This document shows positions 45,132-54,159 of a DNA stretch of 64,000 nucleotides, piece after piece (position 1 is the first letter of the stretch; each line of letters begins with the position of its first letter). Source of the DNA: an uncultured Eudoraea sp. (GTDB taxonomy: Bacteria; Bacteroidota; Bacteroidia; Flavobacteriales; Flavobacteriaceae); assembly GCA_947258555.1 (NCBI GenBank), contig CAMYJF010000008.1:1-64000 (forward strand), read 5' to 3'. The translations under genes and the position numbers were made by a program. The notes under the pieces were generated by a model. It had not been told where the DNA came from. It saw only the letters and a list, made by a program, of their open reading frames with translations, and did no database searches.

Positions 45132-45176
45132 AGGATCTTTAGGTAGATCTATGAGAATTTGTACATTAGCACTCTC

Positions 45177-45260
45177 ATGACAACAAAAACAGACATATTA
45201 TTCTTCTTGCAGGTACTAGATCTGCGTCCTGTTTTTTCTCCGACACGTCGTCGCCCGTAG
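45177..45260 (+). CDS. Candidate arginine leader peptide (attenuator), 27 residues
   Basis: This short frame reads M-T-T-K-T-D-I-L-F-F-L-Q-V-L-D-L-R-P-V-F and ends S-P-T-R-R-R-P-stop. Three consecutive Arg codons (CGT CGT CGC, 45246-45254) lie two codons before the stop. It begins 168 bases upstream of the first gene of the arginine operon, with palindromes and a T-run in between. That is the layout of transcription-attenuation leader peptides, in which stalling at codons for the end product signals shortage. It is much too short for an enzyme. The assignment rests on position and the Arg run only; expression is not shown. Confidence 0.65.
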   Translation: MTTKTDILFFLQVLDLRPVFSPTRRRP

Positions 45261-45278
45261 GGGTGTACTATAGTCTTT

Positions 45279-45320
45279 GGAACTAGGTGAGTCCAGTTCC
45301 GCATAATCATTCACTTTTTT
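45279..45320 (+). promoter_or_regulatory. Overlapping hairpins and T-run between leader peptide and arginine operon
   Basis: Two exclusive pairings are possible. GGAACT (45279-45284) can pair with AGTTCC (45295-45300). GTGAGT (45287-45292) can pair with ATTCAC (45309-45314, one G-U pair), directly followed by TTTTTT (45315-45320). The second would be terminator-like, with a weak 6-8 bp stem and 16-base loop. The first would block it by enclosing GTGAGT in its loop. This fits an antiterminator/terminator switch, but the stems are short. Confidence 0.45.
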
Positions 45321-45344
45321 GTTTCACTTTCAAATTCCTTAGCA

Positions 45345-45962
45345 ATGGAAATAGTAGTTGCTAATGAAACCCATTTAAAATTTGCATCGATTATCTCTGA
45401 AACCATCGCAGAATCTGCCAAGGTCAGAGGTACAGGTATTGCATTGCGAACACCCGAATATCTCAGGCAACGAATCCGAAATGGGAATGCAGTGATTTCC
45501 TTGGATGGAGATAAGTTTGTTGGATTTTGTTATATCGAGGTATGGGATCATAACCAGTATGTGGTCAATTCAGGTTTGATCGTACATCCGGATTACAGGC
45601 AGCTGGGCTATGCCCGCAAGATCAAGCAGGCCATTTTTAAACTCTCCAGAAAGAAATACCCCAAAGCAAAGATCTTTGGGATCACAACCGGCCTGGCCGT
45701 CATGAAGATGAATTACCAACTCGGCTATAAGCCAGTGACTTTTTCTGAGCTCACGGACGACCCCGAATTCTGGAAAGGTTGCCAAACCTGCAAAAATTTT
45801 GATGTCCTGACACGTACCGATCGTAAAATGTGCCTGTGCACCGGAATGTTGTATGACCCCGAAAAGAAGAATTCAAAAAAATCCAAAGCCTTGAATAGCA
45901 AAGCTTTCAGGCGACTAAAAAAGATCAAAGAACAACTTTTTCTTAAAAAGAACGGATCATGA
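45345..45962 (+). CDS. GNAT acyltransferase of the arginine operon, candidate N-acylglutamate synthase
   Basis: The GNAT fold has 205 residues. The acyl-CoA binding segment L-I-V-H-P-D-Y-R-Q-L-G-Y-A near 78-90 is clear. A C-terminal extension has C-Q-T-C near 146-149 and C-L-C near 162-164, four Cys spaced as for a zinc or Fe-S site, then a Lys-rich tail. It is first in the arginine operon and overlaps argG by four bases. No argA or argJ is in the operon, so it is the best candidate to acylate glutamate in the first step, with acetyl or succinyl. This is inference from position. Confidence 0.85.
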   Translation: MEIVVANETHLKFASIISETIAESAKVRGTGIALRTPEYLRQRIRNGNAVISLDGDKFVGFCYIEVWDHNQYVVNSGLIVHPDYRQLGYARKIKQAIFKLSRKKYPKAKIFGITTGLAVMKMNYQLGYKPVTFSELTDDPEFWKGCQTCKNFDVLTRTDRKMCLCTGMLYDPEKKNSKKSKALNSKAFRRLKKIKEQLFLKKNGS

Positions 45963-47140
45963 AAAAAATAGTATTGGCCTATAGTGGCGGTCTTGATACC
46001 TCTTACTGCCTTAGTAATCTCAGTCAAGAATATGGGTACGCTGTACACGCGGTGACAGTAAATACCGGTGGATTCACCCCAGAAGAGATCGAGGAAATGA
46101 AAAAGCAGGCCATACAAATGGGCGCAGCACATTTTACAGCCATTGATGCGATCGAAACCTATTACGAAAAAGCCATTAAATACCTGGTGTTCGGTAATGT
46201 ACTTCGGAATAATACATACCCTTTAAGTGTTAGTGCAGAGCGGATCATTCAGGCCATGGAAATCGTTACCTATGCCAAAAAAATTGAGGCAGATGGGATA
46301 GCCCATGGCAGTACAGGTGCAGGTAACGACCAGGTTAGATTCGACACCATCTTTCAAACGATCGCTCCTGAGATTGAGATCATAACCCCGATCCGTGATA
46401 ACAGTTTATCGAGACAAGAGGAAATCGATTATTTAAATTCCAAAGGGTATACTACTTCCTGGAATAAAGCCAAATATTCAATTAACCAGGGGCTCTGGGG
46501 CACTTCTGTTGGGGGAGCAGAAACCCTGACTTCCAGGAATCCCTTACCGGATGACGCATATCCTTCACAAGTAACCGAATCCGTTCCTAAAACACTAAAA
46601 CTCAGTTTTGAAAAAGGAGAACTCATAGCACTGGATGGGCGGAAAGATAGCCATGTTGCCAACATACAGAAACTTCAGCAAATAGCCGGCAATTACGCCA
46701 TTGGCAGGGATATTCATGTGGGTGATACCATTATCGGCATAAAAGGCAGGGTTGGATTTGAAGCGGCAGCTGCTATCCTGATAATAAAAGCGCATCATCT
46801 ACTTGAAAAGCATACGCTCAGTAAATGGCAGCTCTTTCAAAAAGAACAAATGGCTTCTTTCTATGGCATGCTACTGCACGAAGGTCAGTACCTGGATGCC
46901 GTGATGCGTGATATTGAGGCTTACATGGACCATTCACAGAGATATGTGACGGGAGACGTATTTGTAACCCTGCATCCGTACCGTTATGAGTTGGAAGGCA
47001 TTGAATCAAAATACGATCTCATGGCTTCCGGAGCTGGCACCTATGGGGAAGAAAATAAAGGCTGGTCTGCAGATGACGCCAAAGGATTTATTAAAATTTC
47101 GGCCAATGCCGGGAAAATAGCAAGGCAAATTCAGAAATGA
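45959..47140 (+). CDS. argG: Argininosuccinate synthase
   Basis: It joins citrulline and aspartate with ATP to form argininosuccinate. The N-terminal PP-loop A-Y-S-G-G-L-D-T-S (8-16) and H-G-S-T-G-A-G-N-D-Q-V-R-F near 114-126 are the family hallmarks. The 393 residues are normal. It overlaps the GNAT gene and is followed after one base by argC. Confidence 0.96.
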   Translation: MKKIVLAYSGGLDTSYCLSNLSQEYGYAVHAVTVNTGGFTPEEIEEMKKQAIQMGAAHFTAIDAIETYYEKAIKYLVFGNVLRNNTYPLSVSAERIIQAMEIVTYAKKIEADGIAHGSTGAGNDQVRFDTIFQTIAPEIEIITPIRDNSLSRQEEIDYLNSKGYTTSWNKAKYSINQGLWGTSVGGAETLTSRNPLPDDAYPSQVTESVPKTLKLSFEKGELIALDGRKDSHVANIQKLQQIAGNYAIGRDIHVGDTIIGIKGRVGFEAAAAILIIKAHHLLEKHTLSKWQLFQKEQMASFYGMLLHEGQYLDAVMRDIEAYMDHSQRYVTGDVFVTLHPYRYELEGIESKYDLMASGAGTYGEENKGWSADDAKGFIKISANAGKIARQIQK

Positions 47141-47141
47141 T

Positions 47142-48113
47142 ATGAAACGAATAGGAATCATAGGAGGGTCAGGTTATACAGCCGGAGAACTGATACGTAT
47201 TCTCATCAATCATCCCCATGTGGAGATCGATTTGGTATACAGTCGGACCAATCCAGGCAAACTCGTGTCGTCTGTCCACACCGATCTTACAGGACAGACA
47301 GAACTCGAATTCACAGATGATCCAGACAAGGAAGTTGATGTCCTTTTTCTCTGCCTGGGTCATGGTAAATCCAGGGCCTTTCTGGAGGAGCATTCTGTTT
47401 CCAGCAATACCATTTTGATCGATATGAGTCGGGATTTCAGGCTAAAAGAGGAGCCCGGCATACAGGATCGAACCTTTGTTTATGGGTTAACGGACCTAAA
47501 CAAAGAAGCGATCACAGCCAGCAAGAGTATTGCCAATCCCGGTTGTTTTGCCACGGCTATCCAACTTGCATTATTACCATTGGCCAAAAGTGGTCTGCTG
47601 GATAATGACATTCATGTGCATGCCATCACTGGAAGTACGGGCGCCGGTGTTATGCCCTCGCCTACAACCCATTTTTCATGGCGGAATAACAACGTGAGCT
47701 GGTATAAGCCTTTTGTGCATCAGCATGAAACTGAGATCATCCAAAGCCTGGAGCAGTGTGGTGCTAAACCAACACTTCGGTTTCTGCCTATCCGAGGAGA
47801 TTTTCCAAGAGGTATTTATGCGACAAGCTATACCCGGTTTTCGGGATCCCTTGAAGAAGCCCAAACGCTTTATACCGATTACTATCGCAATTCTTGTTTC
47901 ACAAAGCTCGCCTCTGAACCCGTTCATTTAAAGCAGGTGGTGAATACTAATTATTGCCATGTGCATCTGCATACACATGAGGATCAACTCCTTGTTACTA
48001 CCGCCTTAGATAATTTAATGAAAGGTGCTTCTGGCCAAGCTGTAGAAAATATGAATTTGGCCCTGGGTCTCCCACAGGATACGGGATTACGAATTAAAGC
48101 ATCTGTGTACTAA
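47142..48113 (+). CDS. argC: N-acetyl-gamma-glutamyl-phosphate reductase (N-acyl)
   Basis: An NADPH-dependent reductase of the third step of ornithine synthesis, with 323 residues. G-I-I-G-G-S-G-Y-T-A-G-E near 5-16 is the cofactor-binding start, and the catalytic Cys lies in N-P-G-C-F-A-T near 133-139. H-A-I-T-G-S-T-G-A-G follows. It acts on the product of ArgB, which is encoded further down the same operon. Confidence 0.95.
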   Translation: MKRIGIIGGSGYTAGELIRILINHPHVEIDLVYSRTNPGKLVSSVHTDLTGQTELEFTDDPDKEVDVLFLCLGHGKSRAFLEEHSVSSNTILIDMSRDFRLKEEPGIQDRTFVYGLTDLNKEAITASKSIANPGCFATAIQLALLPLAKSGLLDNDIHVHAITGSTGAGVMPSPTTHFSWRNNNVSWYKPFVHQHETEIIQSLEQCGAKPTLRFLPIRGDFPRGIYATSYTRFSGSLEEAQTLYTDYYRNSCFTKLASEPVHLKQVVNTNYCHVHLHTHEDQLLVTTALDNLMKGASGQAVENMNLALGLPQDTGLRIKASVY

Positions 48114-48130
48114 CCAATAAATTGAGCAAA

Positions 48131-48928
48131 ATGAAAATAGCAATAATAGGAGCAGGCAACCTTGGTATTTCGATAGCAGAAGGAATTTTGCATTCCAATG
48201 GAGCCACGAGCATGTACATGACCCGAAGAGACCTGTCTGCGATACAGCCGTACGAGAAGTATGGCAATGTAATAGTCAGCTCAGACAACAGGGAGGCCGT
48301 AAAAGCATCAGATATACTCATCTGCTGTGTACAACCCGCACAATTTGCTGCAGTTTTGGAGGAAGTAAAAGATCTGCTTCACGAAAACCATATGATCCTT
48401 TCCACTATTACGGGATTCACGATAAGCGAGATAGAAGCTATCGTCGGTAAATCAGCCACCATAGTGCGGAGTATGCCTAATACAGCCATTGCTGTTGGTA
48501 ATTCCATGACGTGCCTTTGTGCTAATGAGACAGGGAAAAATAAGATCGATATTGCGAAAGCTATATTTAACCGCCTCGGGCATACCATGGAGATCCAGGA
48601 AGATCTGATGCAGGCGTCTACTGTGATCTGCGCCAGTGGAATTGCTTTCTGGATGCGCCTTATCCGGGCCACCACACAGGGAGCTATTCAGCTGGGATTC
48701 CATGCCGAAGAAGCACAGGAATTAGCAATGCATACGTGCAATGGGGCAGCTTCGCTCTTGATATCCTCAGGCAATCATCCGGAAGAAGAGATCGATAAGG
48801 TGACCACACCCATGGGATGTACCATTGAAGGTTTAAATGAAATGGAACACGAAGGGCTTAGTTCTTCCTTGATAAAAGGCATAGTTGCCTCCTATCAAAA
48901 GATCAGTGAATTCAGAAAACAAGAGTAG
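48131..48928 (+). CDS. proC: Pyrroline-5-carboxylate reductase
   Basis: It reduces pyrroline-5-carboxylate to proline with NAD(P)H. The N-terminal Rossmann motif I-A-I-I-G-A-G-N-L-G near 3-12 and the C-terminal T-T-P-M-G-C-T-I-E-G-L near 234-244 (family T-P-G-G-x-T-x-x-G-L) identify it. The ATG at 48131 is preferred to the in-frame TTG three codons upstream. Its place inside the arginine operon links proline and arginine synthesis at glutamate and ornithine. It may let proline be made from ornithine-derived pyrroline-5-carboxylate. Confidence 0.93.
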   Translation: MKIAIIGAGNLGISIAEGILHSNGATSMYMTRRDLSAIQPYEKYGNVIVSSDNREAVKASDILICCVQPAQFAAVLEEVKDLLHENHMILSTITGFTISEIEAIVGKSATIVRSMPNTAIAVGNSMTCLCANETGKNKIDIAKAIFNRLGHTMEIQEDLMQASTVICASGIAFWMRLIRATTQGAIQLGFHAEEAQELAMHTCNGAASLLISSGNHPEEEIDKVTTPMGCTIEGLNEMEHEGLSSSLIKGIVASYQKISEFRKQE

Positions 48929-48933
48929 AAGGT

Positions 48934-50061
48934 ATGGAATTGTTTGATGTGTATACTACCTATGACATAGCCCCGGTATCGGCAAAAGGCTATTACCTGT
49001 TCGATGGAGAAGGAAACAAATACCTGGACCTCTACGGAGGCCATGCTGTGATCTCCATAGGGCATGCCCATCCTATCTATGTAAAAAAGTTAGTGGAGCA
49101 ATTAGACCGATTGGCATTCTATAGCAATTCTGTAATCAGCCCCTTACAGCAGCAGGTTGCTGATATGCTGGAAACCGAGTCGGGCTGCACAGACTATTCA
49201 TTGTTCCTGTGCAATTCGGGTGCTGAAGCGAATGAAAATGCGCTGAAACTAGCTTCATTTTACACCGGTAAATCCAGGATCGTTGCTTTTAATAATGGGT
49301 TTCACGGAAGAACATCTGCCGCCGTAGCAGCCACTGATAATTCAGCGATCCAGGCCCCTATTAACAAGCAACACGCTGTTTCTATTTTGGCATTGAATGA
49401 TCTGGTAGCATTAGAAAAGACCCTGGAGAAAGGCGATGTGGCCGCTATCATACTGGAAATGATCCAGGGCGTAGGCGGATTGGATGAACCTGAACCAGGT
49501 TTTCTTGACTCGCTCTATGAATTAGCACACAAATATGGAGCCCTGGTGATCGCCGATGAAGTACAATCAGGATTCGGCCGGACCGGCAAATACTTTGCCT
49601 TTCAACATTTTCCACAGCAACCCGATATCATTACTATGGCTAAGGGTATGGGGAACGGTTTTCCAGTAGCCGGGCTATTGATTCATTCTAAAATTGAGGC
49701 TAAAAAAGGTATGCTGGGAACAACTTTTGGGGGTAATCCGCTTGCCTGTACCGCGATATTATCGGTCATGGAAGTTCTTGCCAAAGAAAATCTTCTGGAA
49801 AATGCCACAAAAATGGAAGCGTACTTCCGCAAAAAGGCCAGTGCCCTTTCTCTTCCTCTTCAGGTGAAAGGTAAGGGCTTGATGCTGGGAATAGATTTCG
49901 GATTTCCGGTAAAGGAATTACGGGCCAACTTAATTTATACACATCAAATATTCACAGGTAGTTCCAAGAACCCAAACGTATTACGGATCTTACCGCCTCT
50001 GAATATTGACGAGCAAGCTCTGGACCAATTATTTGATGCACTTAAAACAGAATTATCATGA
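48934..50061 (+). CDS. argD: N-acetylornithine aminotransferase (class III, PLP)
   Basis: The PLP enzyme of 375 residues makes N-acylornithine from the semialdehyde with glutamate as amino donor. N-S-G-A-E-A-N-E-N-A near 94-103, I-A-D-E-V-Q-S-G-F-G-R-T-G near 205-217 and the PLP Lys in M-A-K-G-M-G-N-G near 234-241 are visible. It is slightly shorter than typical ArgD (about 400), with loss mainly at the ends. The stop overlaps argF' by four bases. Confidence 0.93.
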   Translation: MELFDVYTTYDIAPVSAKGYYLFDGEGNKYLDLYGGHAVISIGHAHPIYVKKLVEQLDRLAFYSNSVISPLQQQVADMLETESGCTDYSLFLCNSGAEANENALKLASFYTGKSRIVAFNNGFHGRTSAAVAATDNSAIQAPINKQHAVSILALNDLVALEKTLEKGDVAAIILEMIQGVGGLDEPEPGFLDSLYELAHKYGALVIADEVQSGFGRTGKYFAFQHFPQQPDIITMAKGMGNGFPVAGLLIHSKIEAKKGMLGTTFGGNPLACTAILSVMEVLAKENLLENATKMEAYFRKKASALSLPLQVKGKGLMLGIDFGFPVKELRANLIYTHQIFTGSSKNPNVLRILPPLNIDEQALDQLFDALKTELS

Positions 50062-50993
50062 AGCATTTCTTAGGAATTGAAGCCATTGATGATATGCATC
50101 TCTGGGTCCGGGAGGCAAGGGATCTGAAAAAAGACCCGGCAGCCTATTCGCATCTGGGGAAAAACAAAACACTGGGCTTGCTCTTTTTTAACAACAGTCT
50201 CAGAACGCGAATGAGCACCCAGAAGGCTGCTTTTAATCTGGGATTGAACGCCCTGGTCATGAATGTAGGGCAAGATGGTTGGTCTCTGGAATTCGAAGAC
50301 AATGTGATCATGAATGGCGAATCCGCAGAGCACATCAAAGAAGCAGCAGGGGTACTTGGTCAGTATTGCGACCTCATTGGGGTTCGTGCTTTTGCCGGCC
50401 TCAAAGACAAAGAAAAGGATGAGAAGGATAGGGTGCTCAATGCCCTGGCAACTTATTCCGGCATCCCGGTGATCAATATGGAGAGCACACTTGGCCATCC
50501 CTTGCAAGCCCTGGCAGATGCCATTACTATTGATGAGAACAAAATAGTGGAACGGCCAAAAGTTGTGCTATCCTGGGCACCACACCCCAGAGCTTTGCCC
50601 CATGCGGTTCCACATTCATTTGTCAGAATGATCCAACAAATAACGGCAGACCTGGTCATAACACATCCGGAAGGATATGAACTGGATCCGGGTGTTACTC
50701 AAAATACAACCATAGAATACGATCAGGAGAAAGCGCTGAAGGATGCCGATTTTGTCTATGTCAAAAACTGGAGTAGTTATTCTCAATACGGAAAAGTACT
50801 TTCTCAGGATACCAGTTGGATGATGACCCGGGAAAAGCTAGGTACAGCGAATTTCATGCATTGCCTGCCGGTAAGACGAAATGTAGTCGTTTCAGGCGAA
50901 GTCCTCGAAGGAAATAAATCACTTGTCATGCAACAGGCAAATAACAGAACGTATGCTGCGCAGCTCGTCCTGAAAAAATTATTGGGATCATGA
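50058..50993 (+). CDS. argF': N-acylornithine carbamoyltransferase (Bacteroidota ArgF')
   Basis: It carbamoylates N-succinyl- or N-acetylornithine, the step that marks the Bacteroidota variant of arginine synthesis. N-S-L-R-T-R-M-S-T near 46-54 is the carbamoyl-phosphate site and F-M-H-C-L-P-V-R-R near 272-280 the C-terminal signature. The segment E-A-A-G-V-L-G-Q-Y-C-D-L-I-G-V-R near 95-110 is where acyl-group specificity is set in studied homologues. I cannot decide succinyl or acetyl by eye. It overlaps both argD and argB by four bases. Confidence 0.92.
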   Translation: MKHFLGIEAIDDMHLWVREARDLKKDPAAYSHLGKNKTLGLLFFNNSLRTRMSTQKAAFNLGLNALVMNVGQDGWSLEFEDNVIMNGESAEHIKEAAGVLGQYCDLIGVRAFAGLKDKEKDEKDRVLNALATYSGIPVINMESTLGHPLQALADAITIDENKIVERPKVVLSWAPHPRALPHAVPHSFVRMIQQITADLVITHPEGYELDPGVTQNTTIEYDQEKALKDADFVYVKNWSSYSQYGKVLSQDTSWMMTREKLGTANFMHCLPVRRNVVVSGEVLEGNKSLVMQQANNRTYAAQLVLKKLLGS

Positions 50994-51772
50994 AAAAGAA
51001 GCAGCTGTCCATAGTTAAGATTGGTGGGGAGATCCTGAACGAGGAAAACACAACAGAGATATTCCTGAAAAAATTCAAGGCTCTGCCCGGGAAAAAAATA
51101 CTCGTACATGGAGGTGGCAAACAAGCCAGTACCCTTGCAGGTAACATGGGAATTGAAAGCAAAATGGTCAATGGCAGGCGCATTACAGATGCCGCAAATC
51201 TCGATATTGCGATCATGGTTTATGGTGGCTTATTGAATAAAAAGCTCGTGGCCAGGCTGCAAGCTTCGGGGTGCCCTGCCATAGGTGTAAGTGGCGCAGA
51301 TGGTAATGCTGTCCTCGCCAATAAAAGGCCTCCTGAACCTATAGATTTTGGGTTTGCAGGGGATATTGAAAAAGTAAACACAGATTTCATAAACCTGCTG
51401 TTGGAGGGAGGATATACCCCTGTAATGTGTGCTCTTTCGCATGATGGCAAAGGCCAAATGTTGAATACGAATGCCGACACAATTGCTGCAGAAACGGCTA
51501 TTGCCATGAGTTCCCTGTACGATACCAAACTGTATTATGTATTTGATAAACCCGGTGTTCTTGAAGATGTGAATGATGAAAGTTCTGTCATACGCGACAT
51601 GAGTGAAGCAAACTACCAGGACTTGATCGAATCAAATCAAATAACCGATGGGATGATCCCAAAGCTTGATAATGGGTATCACGCCTTGCACCACCAGGTT
51701 GGGCAGGTGCAATTAGGGAGCGCTGACATGCTTTCAGACGCAAATAATCCTTCAACCCGGATACGATTATGA
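50990..51772 (+). CDS. argB: N-acetylglutamate kinase (N-acyl)
   Basis: The amino-acid kinase of 260 residues phosphorylates N-acylglutamate. V-K-I-G-G-E near 8-13, V-H-G-G-G-K-Q-A near 38-45 and N-T-N-A-D-T-I-A near 161-168 are family motifs. It starts with an ATGA overlap to argF' and ends with one to argE, so the four genes argD-argF'-argB-argE are translationally coupled. Confidence 0.94.
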   Translation: MKKKQLSIVKIGGEILNEENTTEIFLKKFKALPGKKILVHGGGKQASTLAGNMGIESKMVNGRRITDAANLDIAIMVYGGLLNKKLVARLQASGCPAIGVSGADGNAVLANKRPPEPIDFGFAGDIEKVNTDFINLLLEGGYTPVMCALSHDGKGQMLNTNADTIAAETAIAMSSLYDTKLYYVFDKPGVLEDVNDESSVIRDMSEANYQDLIESNQITDGMIPKLDNGYHALHHQVGQVQLGSADMLSDANNPSTRIRL

Positions 51773-52851
51773 GAACAAAAAAGGAACTTTCAGACAAGGC
51801 GATAGTATTGCTGCAAGAATTGATAGCTACGCCTTCCTTTTCCACAGAAGAAGCACAAACGGCTTTGTGTATTCAGAATTGGCTGGACCAACTCGGGATA
51901 CCTCAAAGGCGTTCCGGAAATAATATCATAGCACAAAATAAGCACTATGACGCCTCAAAACCCTCATTACTGCTTAATTCCCATCACGATACTGTAAAGC
52001 CCAATGCTGGATACACCAGAGATCCTTTTACGCCAGAGATCATCGATGGAAAATTGTATGGCCTGGGAAGTAATGATGCCGGTGGCCCATTGGTTTCCTT
52101 AATGGCTGCATTTGCCTACTTCTATGAAGTTGCTGATTTATCACATAACGTTATCCTGGTAGCCTCAGGGGAAGAAGAGAATTCAGGTCCGAACGGACTT
52201 AGAAAAGTAATGACAGAGATCCCGGCCATCGATGTGGCGATCGTGGGCGAGCCTACCCTAATGCAATTGGCCATAGCCGAAAAAGGGCTTGTAGTCTTTG
52301 ACGCAACTGTAAACGGCGTTTCCTCTCATGCGGCCCATCTAAACCTTGAAAATCCTATTTACAAATGCGTAGATGTGCTGGAATGGTTCAGGGATTTTAA
52401 ATTCGATAAGGTCTCAGAATCACTAGGCCCGGTAAAGACCACGGTGACACAAATTAATGCCGGATCGGCGCACAATGTAGTCCCTGCCCAGGTAGATCTG
52501 GTGGTAGATGTACGTGTAAACGATAAATATTCCAATCAGCAGATCGCAGAAATCCTGGAACGGGAAGCCCCTTGTAAAATGAAAGCGCGTTCCCTTCGGC
52601 ATCAGTCATCATCAATTGATCCGGACCATCCTTTAGTAAAGGCAGGTGTAAAACTAGGTCGGGAAACTTACGGTTCCCCTACCCTTTCTGATCAGGCTGT
52701 CCTAACTTGCCCGTCATTAAAACTGGGGCCCGGCGACAGTACGAGATCTCACACAGCAAACGAATTTATATTTGTAGAGGAAATTTTTGAGGGGATCTCG
52801 ATCTATATCGATATGCTTGAAGAATTCTTGCTCACTCCAACAAATAAGTAA
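51769..52851 (+). CDS. argE: M20 peptidase-family deacylase (ArgE-type)
   Basis: It removes the acyl group late in the pathway, probably from N-acylcitrulline, because carbamoylation here happens on the acylated substrate. The 360-residue M20 enzyme shows the metal-site motifs L-L-N-S-H-H-D-T-V near 65-73, L-G-S-N-D-A-G-G near 102-109 and the catalytic Glu pair in S-G-E-E-E-N-S-G near 137-144. A dimerisation domain lies in the middle (about 175-285). Confidence 0.9.
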   Translation: MRTKKELSDKAIVLLQELIATPSFSTEEAQTALCIQNWLDQLGIPQRRSGNNIIAQNKHYDASKPSLLLNSHHDTVKPNAGYTRDPFTPEIIDGKLYGLGSNDAGGPLVSLMAAFAYFYEVADLSHNVILVASGEEENSGPNGLRKVMTEIPAIDVAIVGEPTLMQLAIAEKGLVVFDATVNGVSSHAAHLNLENPIYKCVDVLEWFRDFKFDKVSESLGPVKTTVTQINAGSAHNVVPAQVDLVVDVRVNDKYSNQQIAEILEREAPCKMKARSLRHQSSSIDPDHPLVKAGVKLGRETYGSPTLSDQAVLTCPSLKLGPGDSTRSHTANEFIFVEEIFEGISIYIDMLEEFLLTPTNK

Positions 52852-52875
52852 AAACAATCCTTAAATAGACTGTCT

Positions 52876-54159
52876 ATGAAAATTTGGGAAAAAGGAATTG
52901 GAATTGACGAAAAGATAGAGGCATTCACAGTTGGTGAAGACCGAATTCTGGATATGCATTTGGCAAAATATGATATCCGGGCTTCAAAAGCCCATGCCCA
53001 TATGCTAGGCAAAACAGGGATCATAGATAGGGAAGATAGCAAGGCATTGATAGACGCTCTAAATCAGCTGGATAGCAAAATTCAAGATGGATCTTTTCAG
53101 ATCGAAAAGGAATTCGAAGATGTGCATTCTAAGATCGAATATGAACTGATCCAATTGCTCGGCGATACCGGAAAGAAGATACATACGGCTCGTTCCCGGA
53201 ACGATCAGGTACTGACAGCTTTGCAATTATACCTCAAAGATCAGCTGCAAAACACTCATAAGGCCACGGAATCCCTGGGGCGGATCCTGCTAACGCTGGC
53301 CGAATCACATAAAGATGTATTGCTACCAGGATATACGCATTTACAGGTTGCCATGCCTTCATCATTCGGGTTGTGGTTTTCGGCCTATGCGGAAAGCCTG
53401 GCTGATGACCTGATATTTTTAGATGCCGCTTATCGCATAGCAGATCAGAATCCACTCGGAAGTGCGGCAGGCTATGGGTCTTCCTTTCCTATAGATCGCG
53501 AGATGACTACAGCAGAATTAGAATTTAACACCTTGAAATACAATGTAGTTGCCGCTCAGATGGGTCGGGGTAAGGTAGAGAAAAGCGCTGCCATGGCCAT
53601 CAGCTCCCTTGCCGGAACCCTGTCAAAACTGGCTGCTGATATCTGTCAATATTTAAGTCAGAATTTTGATTTTATATCCTTTCCAGATACATTGACTACT
53701 GGCAGTAGTATTATGCCGCACAAAAAGAATCCGGATGTTTTTGAGTTGATTCGGGCAAACTGCAATCAGCTTCAAAACGTGCCCAATGAACTCAATCTGA
53801 TCACGGCTAATCTGACCAGTGGATATTTCCGTGACCTACAAATGACTAAGGGTATAATCATTAACGCATTTTCTAAGATCCATGCCTGCCTGGATATCCT
53901 ACAATATAGCCTGCCCCAGATCGAGGTGCGAACCGATATCCTTGAGGAAGAGAAATACAAATACCTGTATTCGGTGGAAGAAGTGAATAAAGAAGTGATG
54001 AAAGGCACACCCTTTCGGGATGCCTATCAAAAGGTAGCGAAGGCTATTAAAAAAGGGGAATTCCAGGCACCTTCCGAACTGGATCACACACATGTTGGGA
54101 GCCTAGGAAATCTCTGTTTGGAAAAGATTGCAGAAAAGCTCGGTCGAACCATCGGCTAG
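52876..54159 (+). CDS. argH: Argininosuccinate lyase
   Basis: It splits argininosuccinate into arginine and fumarate, the last step. The 427-residue fumarase-superfamily protein has S-R-N-D-Q near 111-115 and the signature G-S-S-I-M-P-H-K-K-N-P near 277-287, which includes the catalytic Ser loop. It is somewhat shorter than the usual 450-470 residues, but no motif is missing. It lies 24 bases after argE and ends the operon. Its TAG is part of a small palindrome shared with the convergent gene. Confidence 0.94.
   Translation: MKIWEKGIGIDEKIEAFTVGEDRILDMHLAKYDIRASKAHAHMLGKTGIIDREDSKALIDALNQLDSKIQDGSFQIEKEFEDVHSKIEYELIQLLGDTGKKIHTARSRNDQVLTALQLYLKDQLQNTHKATESLGRILLTLAESHKDVLLPGYTHLQVAMPSSFGLWFSAYAESLADDLIFLDAAYRIADQNPLGSAAGYGSSFPIDREMTTAELEFNTLKYNVVAAQMGRGKVEKSAAMAISSLAGTLSKLAADICQYLSQNFDFISFPDTLTTGSSIMPHKKNPDVFELIRANCNQLQNVPNELNLITANLTSGYFRDLQMTKGIIINAFSKIHACLDILQYSLPQIEVRTDILEEEKYKYLYSVEEVNKEVMKGTPFRDAYQKVAKAIKKGEFQAPSELDHTHVGSLGNLCLEKIAEKLGRTIG

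Follow-up and report, generated by a model that had tools for sequence, protein, structure and literature searches.

Leader peptides and arginine control

Arginine genes are usually under the control of ArgR. The fungal arginine attenuator peptide, encoded by the arg-2/CPA1 uORF, is eukaryotic and senses excess arginine by nascent-chain arrest. Among bacterial leaders, the Corynebacterium ilvB-II motif has a conserved uORF overlapping a structured RNA and is described as transcription attenuation (PMC10272879), and one account of the Salmonella speF leader, which contains orf34, includes discussion of Arg codons as reporters of arginine level (PMC6386406). In Flavobacterium psychrophilum leader-peptide attenuation has been inferred, and the main text on it names conserved elements upstream of pheA and hisG (PMC9723704). 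Searches of the open literature turned up no Arg leader at any arginine operon of Bacteroidota.

The leader considered here is from the window, the whole stretch of 64,000 nucleotides of DNA that was analysed, which belongs to a Flavobacteriaceae assembly of 2.7 Mb whose closest named relatives are uncultured MAGs. All features given below are on its forward (+) strand. The first gene of the arginine operon (45345 to 45962) encodes a GNAT-type N-acyltransferase, without an NCBIfam model match, that is presumed to be the glutamate N-acyltransferase of the arginine pathway. The rest of the operon (45959 to 54159) comprises argG, argC, proC, argD, the gene for N-acylornithine carbamoyltransferase, argB, an argE/dapE-type deacylase gene and argH. 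The GNAT protein carries a Cys cluster, GCQTCKNF...MCLCTG, at its C-terminal end, and it has a basic tail, KKIKEQLFLKK.

The leader reading frame

The leader ORF, MTTKTDILFFLQVLDLRPVFSPTRRRP followed by a stop (45177 to 45260), has 27 codons, with its ATG at 45177 and its TAG at 45258 to 45260. The regulatory Arg run, CGT CGT CGC, and the terminal Pro codon, CCG, are at 45246 to 45257 (45246 to 45260 with the TAG), and exactly 84 bases (45261 to 45344) lie between the stop and the first operon gene at 45345. The initial annotation had pointed to just such a frame, ending R-R-R-P-stop at that distance from the operon, and is exact on this. It had also proposed that the upstream regions of relatives be compared, and that the idea be given up if no Arg-rich frame were conserved there. 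Virtually every relative with the operon has a homologous R-R-P-stop frame at this place, and the start, as well as the frame, is conserved. The GNAT upstream regions compared were those of 30 relatives, 80 named genome contigs and 60 further genomes from covariance-model matches. Of the first 110 loci, 105 have the leader with its RNA element ahead of the GNAT-argG operon, and all 60 fetched model matches sit just upstream of GNAT (56 to 111 nt where measured), nearly all with an open frame of 20 to 40 codons ending Arg-Arg-Pro-stop, a few of which read slightly further. Conservation of the R-R-P-stop frame, to judge from these alignments, is far above chance, keeping in mind that many loci are kin to each other and that the counts are not of independent events.

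Codon usage was counted at 90 non-redundant loci, which had been chosen for R-P-stop in the hairpin termed H1 below: there the codon at position -2 is Arg in 100%, is always CGC and is paired in H1, that at -3 is Arg in 96% (63 CGT, 22 CGC and 1 CGA) and that at -4 is Arg in 68%. The third position of codons -3 and -4 varies mostly synonymously and, since these two codons are outside the H1 stem, this variation is a mark of coding. Over the remaining frame pairwise differences number 796, 425 and 1173 at codon positions 1, 2 and 3, respectively. Leader Arg codons are CGC or CGT (CGY) in 91% of cases versus 28% in the adjacent GNAT genes, where AGA is commonest, which supports selection for CGY as the arginine codons of the leader. 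Of the features by which an attenuator is recognized, a run of end-product codons near the end of the ORF is present, as is a short ORF with its own promoter right before the operon and comparative evidence of its translation. Taken together, the comparisons support a true leader peptide with Arg codons in Bacteroidota, in a lineage that lacks ArgR. A short ACATAT box within the leader ORF (about 45194 to 45199 in the window), some 50 to 60 nt upstream of H1, recurs in relatives even where the surrounding frame differs.

Promoter and tandem leaders

A -7 promoter box, TACATTAG (45162 to 45169), with the Bacteroidota consensus TAnnTTTG, precedes the leader ATG and is conserved in that position. 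At 54 of 67 non-redundant loci with an ATG start, against 2.5 expected, a TAnnTT[TA][GA] box is found no more than 24 nt upstream of the ATG, with a modal distance of 7 nt that is also the distance in the window. In F. johnsoniae the spacing from -7 box to transcription start is 4 to 5 nt (PMC6847099). Transcription in the window is predicted to start at about 45174, a few bases from the ATG of the leader. With the promoter box upstream of the frame, a transcription start downstream of 45260, the other result that the initial annotation had named as fatal to its proposal, is unlikely.

About 20 of the 90 non-redundant loci have a tandem variant in which a second ORF rich in Arg, with RRR or the like at its end (examples are MKNLKNKIRCSVPGLPARNYRRCF and MNLTKNRNREIQPTRSTLRERRR, each followed by a stop), is 130 to 150 nt upstream of the first, and the promoter is further upstream (these loci include L011, L014, L015, L017, L019, L159 and about 15 more). 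The downstream leader of these loci has ATG, GTG or TTG as its start codon, 30 to 31 codons before its stop, a distance that hardly varies. The second ORF cannot be a by-product of H1 and, as far as its codons tell, fits Arg sensing. No terminator was found between the tandem leaders (0 versus 2 expected). A U-rich stretch, ACGTAATTTTATTTTTTT-like, precedes the start codon of the downstream leader, whether ATG, GTG or TTG, at tandem loci.

The RNA element

Hairpin H0, GCAGGU-ACUAG-AUCUGC (45209 to 45225), is inside the leader ORF and has a pair probability of 0.94. The mean z of its zone is -1.39 +/- 0.18 in 36 relatives, its sequence is without conservation and it is the weakest part of the element. 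Hairpin H1, CGCCC-GUAG-GGGUG (45252 to 45265; pair probability 0.98), holds the last Arg codon and the Pro codon, with the stop codon in its loop. Three of 98 aligned sequences have an A-U replacement of a C-G pair in it, and H1 together with the spacer that follows has a mean z of -1.60. This U-rich spacer (45266 to 45278) is of near-constant length, about 10 to 14 nt in relatives, is 52% T over 12 nt and ends in a conserved pyrimidine-G step. The geometry of H1 and spacer would be closer to that of a hairpin-stabilized RNA polymerase pause than to that of a terminator.

Hairpin H2, GGAACU / bulged A / GG-UGAGU-CC / AGUUCC (45279 to 45300), has a stem of six pairs, then a bulge on the 5′ side whose last base is A, then two G-C pairs and a UGNGU loop, and the loop, AGGUGNGUCC, is almost invariant. 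At each of the five outer pairs tested, and at the inner U-A pair, both partners change. Covariation scores 0.30 versus 0.14 for shuffles, of which 0 of 500 scored as high, and partners that had been slid out of register score at most 0.09. The apical G-C pair is GC in 97 sequences and AU in one, the swap being in L199. Structure cells are paired in 94% of cases over the 98 aligned sequences, an alignment that was fitted to the model and so leans towards structure; given the effect size and the unfitted alignments, that the H1 and H2 signal is an artefact of the fitting is implausible. The whole leader folds no better than shuffles (z -0.99), and on the comparative evidence the structural signal is confined to H1 and H2 and visible only by comparison. 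Rfam release 15 has no match to the element at or above any family's score cut-off. In the fold model only H1 responds to the position of the ribosome: its pair probability falls from 0.98 to 0.00 when a ribosome occupies either the Arg codons or the stop, and H2 persists.

Two other ideas about H2 were considered. That its loop serves as a Shine-Dalgarno-like site (AGGUG..UCC) was dropped, since H2-like hairpins in other orders lack the sequence and their loops are often UACGY. Docking of H1, by way of a GNRA loop, into the G-C pairs of H2 gets no support from covariation as judged by eye.

Terminators and alternative pairing

The initial annotation had classed the locus as a candidate attenuator with two mutually exclusive pairings, the second followed by six T residues. 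The part of this that concerns an Arg-codon leader peptide holds, and the terminator and antiterminator do not: neither a conserved intrinsic terminator before the first gene nor conserved, mutually exclusive terminator and antiterminator pairings were found in relatives. The complementary stretches do exist (GTGAGT at 45287 to 45292 and ATTCAC at 45309 to 45314, then T), yet they are not predicted to pair. As a terminator, GUGAGU/AUUCAC with its T6 was discarded, the mean pair probability being 0.011 in free RNA and 0.000 to 0.019 with a ribosome modelled on the leader. This stem competes with the much stabler H2 and is disrupted in L002, one of two congeners, which has ATTCAA. Over 51 relatives the downstream stretch pairs less well with the loop and 5′ arm of H2 than shuffled sequences do (mean z +0.47). 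In a search that spanned the leader, the arms of H1, the spacer, H2 and the downstream stretch, 17 segment pairs were tested and none beats shuffles, so that the exclusive pairings are not borne out as conserved features.

Strong intrinsic terminators (at least 7 bp, 4 of them GC) were found in 6 of 90 arg leaders versus 14 of 14 his leaders from the same genome set. A looser rule yields terminator-like sites at 57 of 90 arg leaders versus 19.3 expected, mostly H1 followed by the distant U-rich spacer. There is no U-tract right after H1, and after H2 there is one only in some species. Upstream of hisG in the window's own genome (L140, on G000 contig C15) there is a textbook His leader, MNKKHTHLHFDPGAQAR and stop, with a strong intrinsic terminator and its U run, and a his leader and terminator of the textbook kind occur in 14 of 15 genomes (one was unparsed), other Flavobacteriales families included. 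The same cells appear, from these predicted structures, to use textbook terminator attenuation for histidine.

Distribution and ArgR

The covariance model has a match in 183 of 300 Flavobacteriaceae, with a second match in only three among the genomes listed, and in 25 of 60 relatives, where it matches once each, before GNAT. By this measure the element is essentially single-copy per genome and at the arginine operon. That H2 might be a general flavobacterial element was rejected, the two extra weak matches that were inspected being within or opposite coding regions. At carA in the same genomes no convincing Arg leader was found, the matches there looking like the conserved tail of a neighbouring gene.

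An ArgR domain was found in none of 60 genomes, the window's genome and 59 relatives; with the same search 9 of 14 control genomes were positive, including a Bacteroides. Among 149 Bacteroidia genomes ArgR is present at E <= 0.001 in 8, 7 of them above the cut-off. Four of the Bacteroidia genomes examined have argR together with GNAT (L263 to L266); in them argR is directly upstream of GNAT, the place of the leader, and no clear leader was seen at these four loci.

In other Bacteroidia orders Arg-rich ORFs that end RR, RRA, RRP, RV or RI are found at the same position. The pentaloop of H2 is UGNGU in Flavobacteriaceae, and in other orders its putative counterpart is YNNGY, often UACGY. A hairpin with a YNNGY loop follows the leader stop at 15 of 43 other-order loci versus 3.3 expected, and a UACGY loop at 5 versus 0.1 expected, counts that are partly post hoc since the YNNGY pattern was noticed on part of these loci before the full count; among the 19 loci that were read later there are three YNNGY matches, two of them UACGU. 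This is suggestive of a relative of H2 in the other orders. Hairpins with UACGU or UACGC loops after an Arg leader were seen at L027, L028, L235, L238, L247 and L262, in other families and orders, and a distant form of H2 is a possible description of them.

Proposed mechanism and alternatives

The region from 45162 to 45300 is probably a cis-regulatory leader of the arginine operon in which the sensing of codon supply controls H1 and the readout is independent of a terminator. On the comparative evidence, the promoter directly upstream would drive the 27-codon leader ORF, whose last Arg codon and stop make up one arm and the loop of H1, with H2 next. A ribosome translating the leader would measure the supply of arginyl-tRNA, and the leader would thereby take the place of the repressor protein missing from these bacteria. 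With enough arginine it would terminate and leave, H1 would form beside H2 and the operon would be kept low; with arginyl-tRNA short it would stay on the CGY run, H1 would be blocked and the operon would be expressed. The direction of the response is assumed to be that of other amino-acid leaders, by analogy. As a ribosome blocks H1 equally whether it sits on the Arg codons or the stop, discrimination would have to rest on dwell time, and on the CGY run this would be long when arginyl-tRNA is short.

For the readout, the candidates are Rho-dependent termination on a stretch with more C than G, a protein recognizing the H2 loop, and RNA polymerase that is acted on directly or recognizes H2. The most likely seems to be a factor that acts on the RNA of H1 and H2 or on the exposed C-over-G stretch behind H2. 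That stretch, from H2 to the first gene (45301 to 45344), is G-poor and unstructured (mean z +0.38), its C/G ratio is 2.7 over relatives versus 1.16 for controls and its YC density is ordinary. The C/G ratio is the one pointer to Rho, whose involvement has the standing of a candidate.

Ribosome stalling that replaces a terminator hairpin by an antiterminator, as in classical attenuation, would account for the run of Arg codons and the position of the leader, has the his precedent in the same genome and could draw on the excess of terminator-like sites under the loose rule. It is nonetheless unlikely in view of the rarity of strong terminators compared with the his leaders, the missing U-tract directly after H1 and its patchy occurrence after H2, the want of a conserved competing pairing, the GUGAGU/AUUCAC stem having a pair probability of 0.01, and the tandem leaders, which are also without a terminator between them. 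An arrest peptide, with the nascent RRRP-stop chain sensing arginine or ornithine in the exit tunnel and blocking termination (compare TnaC, SpeFL and the fungal arginine attenuator peptide), would explain why the last residue is Pro without exception in the 90 loci, but these had been picked for an R-P-stop in H1, whose stem dictates the Pro codon. At 7 to 8 residues before the stop a loose [P/S]-F motif does recur, with PVRPxF in other orders. Its distance to the stop varies, however, leaders outside the family end RR, RRA, RV or RI, and apart from Arg the residues show little conservation, the strict ones being just the Arg run and the Pro that the structure imposes. The bias of the Arg codons to CGY, which a peptide sensor does not require, adds to making nascent-chain arrest quite improbable.

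Were H1 and H2 a metabolite-binding riboswitch or a protein operator on their own, with the leader ORF secondary, the near-invariant loop of H2 on a covarying stem with a bulged A would fit, being an architecture typical of recognized hairpins, and so would the retention of H1 and H2 where a second Arg ORF lies upstream. That the start, frame and Arg codons of the leader are conserved throughout as well, and that the element is small, without a multi-helix junction and without an Rfam match, makes this very improbable. Hardly credible is the idea of an untranslated leader whose RRP-stop run is a by-product of H1 conserved as RNA. Codon -2 and the Pro codon are indeed within the H1 stem; codons -3 and -4, outside it, stay Arg with synonymous third-position changes, there is a third-position excess over the rest of the ORF, and the position of the start codon and the promoter spacing are conserved, the start being about 30 codons before the stop even when it is GTG or TTG.

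Sensing of arginyl-tRNA supply with a terminator-independent readout may extend beyond the family. Arginine control across the class Bacteroidia, by a leader that measures arginyl-tRNA and a factor that recognizes H2 and reads the signal, with no intrinsic terminator and with ArgR having taken over the leader's place before the operon in a few families, is conceivable, though we lean against it. The locus suggests how Bacteroidota without ArgR, in a phylum whose cis-regulation is little studied, could regulate arginine synthesis, and it defines a compact and widely distributed RNA element that is single-copy in nearly every genome and has a clear codon signal. It also poses the question of how leader translation is coupled to operon expression, given that there is no terminator and yet apparent terminator attenuation at his in the same cells.

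Comparison with known systems

The signal and the operon are those of ArgR regulation, but ArgR is absent from the window's genome and the 59 relatives. The fungal arginine attenuator peptide is likewise a short upstream peptide at arginine synthesis. The Salmonella speF leader, as described in that account, controls ornithine decarboxylase, and so polyamines, rather than arginine synthesis, and is of a different phylum and RNA (PMC6386406). The ilvB-II motif shares with the arginine leader a uORF overlapping structured RNA before an amino-acid operon, and differs in being for branched-chain amino acids and in Actinobacteria (PMC10272879). Structured 5′ regions before amino-acid operons are known in F. 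psychrophilum, also one of the Flavobacteriaceae, for which the main text names no arginine leader (PMC9723704). The arginine leader is like the hisL, trpL, thrL, leuL and ilv attenuators in having a promoter, a short ORF rich in codons for the product, and a hairpin over the regulatory codons and stop, all before a biosynthetic operon. Unlike attenuators of the hisL and trpL type it is for arginine, no terminator or antiterminator was found, the stop is followed by H2 with its almost invariant loop, and about a quarter of the non-redundant arg loci have tandem leaders.
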